From Mya arenaria (Eukaryota; Mollusca; Bivalvia; Myida; Myidae), in contig NC_069126.1 of the NCBI RefSeq assembly GCF_026914265.1, positions 27,020,634 to 27,084,633 on the forward strand: 64,000 bases of DNA. Direction: 5' to 3'. The translations under genes were made by a program, and so were the position numbers. A model generated the notes under the pieces. That model made no database searches. It worked only from the letters and a program-made list of their open reading frames with translations, and was not told the origin of the DNA. This document shows, piece after piece, positions 8,001 through 13,948 of this stretch (the stretch's first letter is position 1; the number at the start of each line of letters is the position of its first letter).

Positions 8001-11000
8001 CAGACAGTATATGGTATACGTGCATTCATGTAAGAGTAGCTATTATTGTGCCGTCTGTGGAGCTTGCCAGACATAGTTATTTCTCAGTCTGGCATCGTCT
8101 GTGTCGCTTTTTATTGATAACATTTTAAACTCCTTTTGTAAAGTTTAATATTAAACTTGGTACATGCAATGCTCATGAACAGAATATGACTCCTATATAA
8201 GATATGTGTCATGTTTACCTTTACTAGGAAAATGATGGGCTTTGCTGACAGATGACACATCCTATTCACATAATTCAAGCTTGAGCTTCATGTTTCAGGG
8301 GACTTGCGGGAGGAGCAGACAATGGAGAGAGAGGCTATATGTTGACATTTGCCATTGCCTACATTCGGGACATCGGATTTGACTACTACATTGTTGCAGA
8401 GTCATTTGAAACTTCTGTGCCTTGGGATAGGTAAGGGTAGTTATACATTCAAGTGACATGACTGCCCTGATTAAAATATCCCTAACTGTTAAAATGGGGT
8501 AAAAGCCAAGGAACAAATAATATATATGACCTTGTATTTATTTTAATTGGATTCAACACTTCTTTTGTTGTATTATTAATAACAGAGGGTGGACATCATC
8601 ACATTTATCATCAATTAAACTGTAATTGTGTAGGCACTGAGAAGGCTACTTAGAAATTATTTTTTTGGTAAAATGCATTCAATTTTGCATAATACTCAAG
8701 TTCATTAGCCTGAAATCGGTGTACTGACTTGGTGATTTTGTAATATTTCAGATGTCTAGACCTGTGTAAGAATGTGAAGGACCGTGTACACCGGGAATGT
8801 AAGGAGAGAGGAATACAGTTCCCACCTTACGTCACATGCAGGTAAGGTTCTGAAAATATCCATCTTACATTAAATAGAAGTTATTTTCTCTACTTTGGTA
8901 ATACCCACCTTACATCAAATGAAGGTAAGCTGATCTACACTGGGAATGCCAGCCTTACATCAGCTGTTCTAAGCTGGTGATTCACAACTGACACCACATC
9001 ATGGTAGACTATTCTACACGATTGATTCTCAACTGACATCACATAAAGGTTAGCTGTTTTTCACTGGTCATTCCCGAATAACATCACATGAAGGTAGGCT
9101 GTTCTACGCTGGTCATTCCCGAATAACATCACATGAAGGTAAGCTGCTCTACAATGGTGATTCAGGAATAACATCACATGAAGGTAAGCTGCTCTACAAT
9201 GGTGATTCACGAATAACATCACATGAAGGTCAGCTGTTCTACACTGGTGATTCCCAAATAACACCACATGATGGTTAGCTGTTCTATGATGGTAATTCCC
9301 GAATAACATCACATGAAGATAAGCTGTTCTACGATGGTCATTCCCTAATAACATCACATGAAGGTAAGCTGTTCTACAATGGTGATTCACGAATAACATC
9401 ACATGAAGGTCAGCTGTTCTACGATGGTGATTCCCAAATAACACCACATGATGGTTAGCTGTTCTATGATGGTAATTCCCGAATAACATCACATGAAGAT
9501 AAGCTGTTCTACGATGGTGATTCCCGAATAACACCACATGAAGGTAGGCTGTTCTACACGATTGATTCATAAATGACATCACATGAAGATAAGCTGTTCT
9601 ACGATGGTGATTCCCGAATAACACCACATGAAGATAGGCTGTTCTACACTGGTGATTCCCGAATAACACCACATGAAGATAGGCTGTTCTATACTGGTCA
9701 TTCCCACATTACCTCACATGAAGGTGGCTGTTCTATGCTGGTCATTCCCAACTGACACCACATGAAGGTTAGTTGTTCTACGCTGGTGATTCCTGAATAA
9801 CACCACATGAAGGTAAGCTGTTCTACACTGGTGATTCCTACTTGACATCACATAAAGGTAAGCTGTTCTACACTGGTGATTCCTACTTGACATCACATAA
9901 AGGTAAGCTGTTCTACACTGGTGATTCCTACTTGACATCACATAAAGGTAAGCTGTTCTACGCTGGTGATTCCTACTTGACATCACATAAAGGTAAGCTG
10001 TTCTACGCTGGTGATTTCTATTTGACATCACATAAAGGTAAGCTGTTCTACGCTGGTGATTTCTACTTGACATCACATAAAGGTAAGCTGTTCTATGCTG
10101 GTGATTCCTACTTGACATCACATAAAGGTAAGCTGTTCTACGCTGGTGATTTCTACTTGACATCACATAAAGTAAGCTGTTCTAAGCTGGTGATTCCTAC
10201 TTGACATCACATAAAGTAAGCTGTTCTAAGCTGGTGATTCCTACTTGACATCACATAAAGGTAAGCTGTTCTAAGCTGGTGATTTCTACTTGACATCACA
10301 TAAAGGTAAGCTGTTCTACACTGGTGATTCCTACTTGACATCACATAAAGGTAAGCTGTTCTAAGCTGGTGATTCCTACTTGACATCACATAAAGGTAAG
10401 CTGTTCTAAGCTGGTGATTCATACTTGTGATTCCTACTTGACATCACATAAAGGTAAGCTGTTCTAAGCTGGTGATTCCTACTTGACATGACATAAAGGT
10501 AAGCTGTTCTAAGCTGGTGATTCATACTTGACATCACATAAAGGTAAGCTGTTCTACACTGGTGATTCCTACTTGACATCACATAAAGGTAAGCTGTTCT
10601 ACACTGGTGATTCCTACTTGACATCACATAAAGGTAAGCTGTTCTACACTGGTGATTCCTACTTGACATCACATAAAGGTAAGCTGTTCTACACTGGTGA
10701 TTCCTACTTGACATCACATAAAGTAAGCTGTTCTAAGCTGGTGATTCCTACTTGACATCACATAAAGTAAGCTGTTCTAAGCTGGTGATTCCTACTTGAC
10801 ATCACATAAAGGTAAGCTGTTCTACGCTGGTGTTTCCTACTTGACATCACATAAAGGTAAGCTGTTCTACGCTGGTGATTCCTACTTGACATCACATAAA
10901 GTAAGCTGTTCTAAGCTGGTGATTCCTACTTGACATCACATAAAGGTAACTGTTCTACGCTGGTGATTCCTACTTGACATCACATAAAGGTAAGCTGTTC

Positions 11001-13948: not shown

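Follow-up and report, generated by a model that had tools for sequence, protein, structure and literature searches.

In the 64,000-nt stretch of DNA analysed here (the window), we found that an intron of AGPS holds a 45-bp tandem array that very probably is a minisatellite derived from the boundary between this intron and the exon before it; the array would have grown by duplication and by unequal exchange or slippage, and it is most probably spliced out silently. Its sequence places it, as we read it, with the mirage-type exon/intron-boundary minisatellites, a kind first described in lancelets.

The AGPS array and its downstream daughter

Exon translations from the window match the solved structure of peroxisomal alkyldihydroxyacetonephosphate synthase (PDB 4bc7/4bby, E 1.5e-42), which identifies the gene as AGPS. 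This alignment takes in the exon next to the array through QFPP..TCR and the following exon through VTQ.YDAGAC.YFYF.FNYRGI. Because the exon is conserved AGPS coding sequence, we regard it as the older sequence and as the parent of the array. The intron holding the array spans 8842-11910; farther on, one AGPS exon has its end near 12907, and the final exon that we recognised occupies 13757-13876 (FAD-oxidase_C). In the intron on the 5' side of the parental exon, two pieces of 8448-8583 resemble 37879-38002 (96% over 26, 87% over 53), and this similarity is probably that of a dispersed repeat. The features of the locus, with what each rests on, are as follows (a slash marks the splice junction).

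8752-8841, + strand: AGPS coding exon whose 3' end is the putative parent of the array (translation; PDB 4bc7/4bby match, E 1.5e-42)
8786-8852, + strand: inferred founder segment, ~66 bp, duplicated head to tail (circularised-segment test)
8842-8851, + strand: true 5' splice site CAG/GTAAGG and first intron bases (GTTCT), recurring in the unit (8/9 to CAGGTAAGT; U1 duplex -11.5 kcal/mol; founder alignment)
8842-8924, + strand: leader of two degenerate copies, 8842-8879 and 8880-8924 (wraparound path; anchored extension)
8925-9812, + strand: old diverged block with mostly decayed donors (wraparound path, donor scoring, unit comparison)
9813-11394, + strand: young homogenised block of 35 units, G/GTAAG in 29/35 (wraparound path, unit comparison)
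11395-11568, + strand: decayed 3' edge units, then the exon-like stretch TACACTGGGAATGTAAG (exon matching, tile control, wraparound path, exon states)
11911-12010, + strand: next AGPS exon, preceded by the true acceptor TTTTTTTCCAG at 11910 (translation and PDB alignment)
14966-16646, + strand: tandem duplication, 14966-15658 and 16025-16646, enclosing the daughter array (self-alignment, junctions)
15658-16024, + strand: daughter array of eight young-type units (TRF; exon positions; shared variant GACATACCATA)

The original prediction of a 45-bp array in an AGPS intron was confirmed by TRF, which reports the main array at 8962-11444 with a period of 45 bp, 55.0 copies and 88% matches. When the sequence is aligned to the young unit with wraparound, the path runs through 62 units with no break from 8819 to 11559; it begins inside the exon, and the cluster thus adjoins the parental boundary within AGPS. 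Comparing the units one by one with the consensus, we found that the interior is homogenised and that the edge copies are left out. Within the old block, a four-unit stretch of 180 bp occurs twice in succession (9184-9363 and 9364-9543, 174/180 identical), as unequal exchange would give. The 10-mer AAAGGTAAGC, predicted to recur every 45 bp over 2.5 kb, has a shorter reach: the main array contains 28 exact copies, from 9854 to 11346, across ~1.5 kb.

A second array of the same 45-bp unit is present at 15658-16016 (8 copies, 94% matches by TRF), ~1.8 kb past the last recognised AGPS exon. Its last unit carries the variant GACATACCATA; the window has one other occurrence of this variant, at 11381, within unit 11350 of the main array. 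The two copies of the tandem duplication that flanks the second array are 99.2% identical over 368 columns and 93.4% identical over 257 columns. This arrangement suggests that the daughter array arose as a templated insertion during a local tandem duplication. When we searched the 1.216-Gb assembly (18 contigs) with one query that had an old-type edge, scoring two candidates and skipping very common words, we obtained 9 matches, all inside this window's stretch of contig C5.

The window contains other repeated sequence. Tandem repeats at 2482-3070 (146 bp) and 23406-23915 (182 bp) both have AAGGTCAAGGTCACA-like stretches (TRF) and are perhaps one dispersed family. B-box/NHL-type open frames, which we take to be TRIM-like, recur at 18911-20822, 31631-33541 and 38773-39219; Pfam assigns zf-B_box to 18911-19249, SGL to 19476-20819 and NHL to 32213-33538, and nothing to 38773-39216. 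Retroelement pieces lie on opposite strands, with an integrase (Integrase_H2C2, rve) at 28587-29777 (- strand) adjoining RT RNase H at 29873-30520 (+ strand), so this is either a rearranged element or a pair of pieces that meet head to head.

Ancestry of the 45-bp unit

The exon at 8821-8846 and the first array unit at 8904-8929 are identical at 23/26 positions, just as predicted (all but three of 26). The exon with its donor aligns to the leader (8847-8961) with a score of 37, and 0/2000 dinucleotide shuffles of the exon get there. By itself a score of this size is uncommon without being unique, since 37 or more is also reached by 10 of 938 other segments of 96 nt, chosen outside the listed repeats, when each is aligned to the 150 nt that follow it. 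For three further exons of the gene (approximate bounds), the scores with the introns that belong to them are 16, 24 and 19, as compared to 37 for the parental exon.

To separate the donor from the rest of the exon, we removed the CAG/GTAAG core. The exon then scores 23 against the leader (reached by 3/2000 shuffles) and also 23 against 8904-9060 (8/2000), and just 14 against the young array consensus (463/2000). The exon signal outside the donor core thus sits at the edge of the array and is missing from its homogenised interior. At the other end, in the 3' flank, the exon sequence TACACCGGGAATGTAAG, which lies outside the donor, matches 11552-11568 at 16/17 positions with a score of 29 (0/2000 shuffles); this score is reached by 1/813 window tiles, 8626-8775, which overlaps the exon itself.

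When alignments were anchored at the array and extended outwards, the exon plus leader (8752-8924) reached a score of 64 (0/400 shuffles, maximum 20), the exon plus 8842-8879 reached 30 (0/400) and the exon alone reached 22 (0/400). In unanchored alignments, the exon alone is borderline against the young unit (12/400 shuffles reach its score) and 8842-8879 alone is not significant (90/400), and 8842-8903 and 11457-11570 are each reached by 0/400 shuffles.

To look for a founder, every 66-nt segment of the window was circularised and aligned with a long gap allowed. With the old-unit consensus, the segment that starts at 8786/8787 reaches 58.0, more than any of the 20,177 other 66-nt segments (maximum 53.4); with the young consensus its score is 46.0, which the best background segment equals (46.0). 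In the founder alignment, the intron bases after the donor are joined to the exon bases TACACC, and ~20 exon bases are missing from the unit. This loss is visible only against the doubled founder; with ordinary gap costs the alignment gets just 26 nt at the leader, and one long-gap setting gives the same. On this alignment, the unit would derive from ~66 bp made up of the exon end and the first ~10 intron bases, minus ~20 exon bases.

We also scored exon states at ten columns where the exon and the young consensus differ, using a founder string aligned by hand; because of this choice of columns and the hand alignment, only the contrast between edge units and old units is informative. Exon states are found at 5/10 columns in edge unit 8880 and at 7/10 in edge unit 11497. 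Units 8925-9768 have 0-4, units of the young block have 0-1, and 4 is the maximum in any other intron unit. Edge unit 11452 has 3/10, unit 11395 has 1/10 and the first intron unit (8842-8879) has 0/8. The edge units are thus not all ancestral-looking (8842 and 11452 are not), which slightly lowers our confidence in the explanation favoured below.

One reading that we consider very improbable is that the intron received a satellite or mobile repeat of unrelated origin, whose likeness to the donor region would be accidental and due mostly to the AG/GTAAG core that both contain. The second array, which lies outside the recognised AGPS exons, would fit such a repeat, as would the young consensus, which has no significant likeness to the exon once the donor core is removed and for which the founder segment only equals the best of the background; both properties of the young consensus count against a junction origin. 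An unrelated repeat would not be expected to have exon-like sequence beyond the donor core at both edges, to carry the most exon states in two edge units, to have its old consensus best matched by the founder segment, or to match, with one old-type-edge query, only this window in the genome.

We favour an origin from the AGPS junction because exon-like matches are found at both ends of an unbroken path from 8819 to 11559 and the anchored extension is never equalled (0/400 shuffles); because the founder segment outscores 20,177 others against the old consensus and edge units 8880 and 11497 are the richest in exon states; and because three other AGPS exons score lower against their own introns and the matches of the one-query genome search fall only in this window. 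The proposal that the unit grew from this junction is accordingly supported. Of the two results that the original prediction named as refuting it, neither turned up in what the analysis covered: the one-query genome search hit this window only, and the junction similarity is far above shuffles. A segment of ~66 bp across the 3' end of the AGPS exon and its 5' splice site would have been duplicated in tandem into the intron, and the loss of ~20 exon-derived bases would have left the 45-bp unit. This unit may then have expanded and been homogenised by unequal exchange or slippage, with older diverged copies left at both edges, and a piece of the young block would later have seeded the second array ~4 kb downstream during the local tandem duplication; the donor look-alikes would be inherited passengers. 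We infer this order of events and the exchange mechanism from the anatomy and the ancestry signal, both of which are observed directly.

Donor-like sites and the outcome of splicing

To quantify the donor-like sites, we scored the 58 units that start in 8850-11470; the AGPS donor of the exon ending at 7625 was left out of the comparison. GT is present within a base of the donor position in 51/58 units, 36/58 match CAGGTAAGT at 7/9 or more positions, and 33/58 have AAGGTAAGC (AAG/GTAAGC), which pairs with U1 at -9.5 kcal/mol when computed with the sequence that we take to be the 5' end of U1. Many units have thus kept splice signals, not all of them, and the original prediction of dozens of splice-donor look-alikes stands, while its figure of about 55 is too high. 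The true donor matches at 8/9 positions and pairs at -11.5 kcal/mol, and none of the array donors equals this predicted pairing.

The density of sites that match at 7/9 or more is 13.4 per kb for the array and 0.74 per kb for the rest of the window. All those of the array are on the AGPS strand, and on its antisense strand no site exceeds 6/9. Such a density on one strand is what would be seen if the array were functional, with its near-consensus sites binding U1 snRNP and affecting AGPS RNA by strengthening exon recognition, by decoy intron retention or by nuclear retention; however, the same enrichment would be expected from descent alone, and we consider a functional array very improbable. 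We sought selection on the donors and saw none: the 9-column donor window ranks 21/45 in the old units and 16/45 in the young units (1 is least conserved), so that the motif is conserved no better than the rest of the unit, and GTAAG is kept in just 4/21 of the oldest units (those starting at 8880-9768), as compared to G/GTAAG in 29/35 young units. Predicted local folding covers array donors and the true donor alike (mean unpaired probability 0.02 and 0.015, respectively), and it does not discriminate between them. Amphioxus mirages are also reported, in the portion of the source drawn on here, not to disturb regular splicing (PMC3087553).

The array has no match to the acceptor motif YYYCAG in its 2.58 kb, as compared to 1.72 per kb elsewhere. 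The intron contains three, starting at 11586, 11867 and 11905, and the last of these is the true acceptor; in the four AGPS acceptors that we identified, the last six bases are TTTCAG or TTCCAG. Because there is no YYYCAG in the array, the readiest role left for its donors would be that of distal donors to the parental exon. If this exon were extended as far as any of the array donors, the Arg codon split at its end would be followed directly by TAA. Since the predicted U1 pairing of the true donor is the strongest, YYYCAG is missing from the array and read-through would truncate the protein at once, the array is most probably silent; in the likeliest course, splicing takes place at the proximal donor and the array is removed together with the intron. 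That the array is neutral for splicing is what we infer from donor columns that are not specially conserved, together with the missing YYYCAG and the stop on read-through; the donor and acceptor content and the stop codon are themselves direct observations.

Several other fates were considered. Cryptic exons made from array donors, as the original prediction proposed, are unlikely on sequence grounds and were rejected, as the array offers no YYYCAG acceptor. Titration of U1 by one locus would be implausible. Dual (recursive) AG/GT sites were set aside: most young units read AAAG/GTAAG, yet the AG is preceded by ACATAA, unlike the TTTCAG and TTCCAG acceptors. No Rfam family reaches its gathering score in the window, and a structured RNA was set aside. 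Protection by U1 from premature polyadenylation was also rejected: the array has no AATAAA or ATTAAA (two ATTAAA are present elsewhere in the intron), so nothing inside it needs protecting.

The human IFI6 minisatellite has a 12-bp unit, and use of its donors leaves an open reading frame. In IFI6 (6-16), the minisatellite supplies multiple splice donors (Turri et al., 1995, as cited in PMC4526556), and two downstream repeat units are used as donors to give three mRNAs (PMC4526556). As in IFI6, in the part of the source drawn on, the repeat units of the AGPS array carry the splice donors of the gene. With this precedent and with AAG/GTAAGC in 33/58 units, the array donors could be alternative 5' splice sites that give AGPS isoforms; however, translation of each such isoform would stop at the TAA that directly follows the split Arg codon, and U1 pairing is predicted to be strongest at the true donor, which is the proximal one. 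Unlike in IFI6, where donors are used, use of an array donor in AGPS would be predicted to bring an immediate stop and leaves no open reading frame, and we consider AGPS isoforms of this kind extremely unlikely. Silent removal with the intron remains our preferred outcome for the AGPS array.

Relation to known boundary minisatellites

The original report of mirages is said to be that of Canestro et al. in 2002. In the sources as far as drawn on here, mirages are minisatellite-like tandem duplications of exon/intron boundaries in amphioxus genes (PMC3087553, PMC3902484). They are described in Adh3 and in the globins BflGb6 and BflGb9 (PMC3087553); TnC is a further lancelet mirage, and PGBD5 is likened to mirages (PMC3902484). 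Many of their units contain AG/GT, their length varies, and they are homogenised inside with the edges left out (PMC3087553). The AGPS array resembles amphioxus mirages, as these excerpts present them, in its tandem boundary-spanning copies, in its many AG/GT, in concerted evolution inside and in boundary copies that are spared. Mirages arise at 5' or 3' boundaries in the parts consulted, with BflGb9 duplicating the 3' boundary of exon 2, and the Adh3 mirage has units of 10-72 bp, which bracket the 45 bp of the AGPS array. Unlike the BflGb6 mirage, for which the excerpt quotes 6 and 3 units in two haplotypes, the AGPS array has ~58 units, and unlike amphioxus mirages as described there, it has a daughter array outside the parental intron. 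A case of a new intron made by tandem duplication across an intron/exon boundary is, in the part of its account used here, similar in that splice signals were copied; there one duplication made an intron, in contrast to the long AGPS array in an existing intron, where no new intron is indicated.

The statement that no case of this kind had been described is not supported, as amphioxus mirages (PMC3087553, PMC3902484) and human IFI6 (PMC4526556) precede it, at least in the portions of these papers drawn on. In an open-literature search that took in few papers in depth, we saw no case outside lancelets that was called a mirage.

It is conceivable, although very unlikely in our estimate, that an exon boundary that founded a satellite, filled its own intron with ~three dozen U1 sites and exported a daughter array now forms a multivalent U1 platform, which would bias exon definition or RNA retention by copy number and so act as a length-variable splicing rheostat outside chordates. 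For the far more probable silent array, the locus is well preserved: parent, transitional edge copies, homogenised core and daughter array are found together, and the steps from splice junction to minisatellite can be followed at AGPS. The array also offers a natural experiment on how effectively splicing disregards ~three dozen near-consensus donors behind a true donor. If the host is a non-chordate, as we suspect, mirages would be no peculiarity of lancelets.
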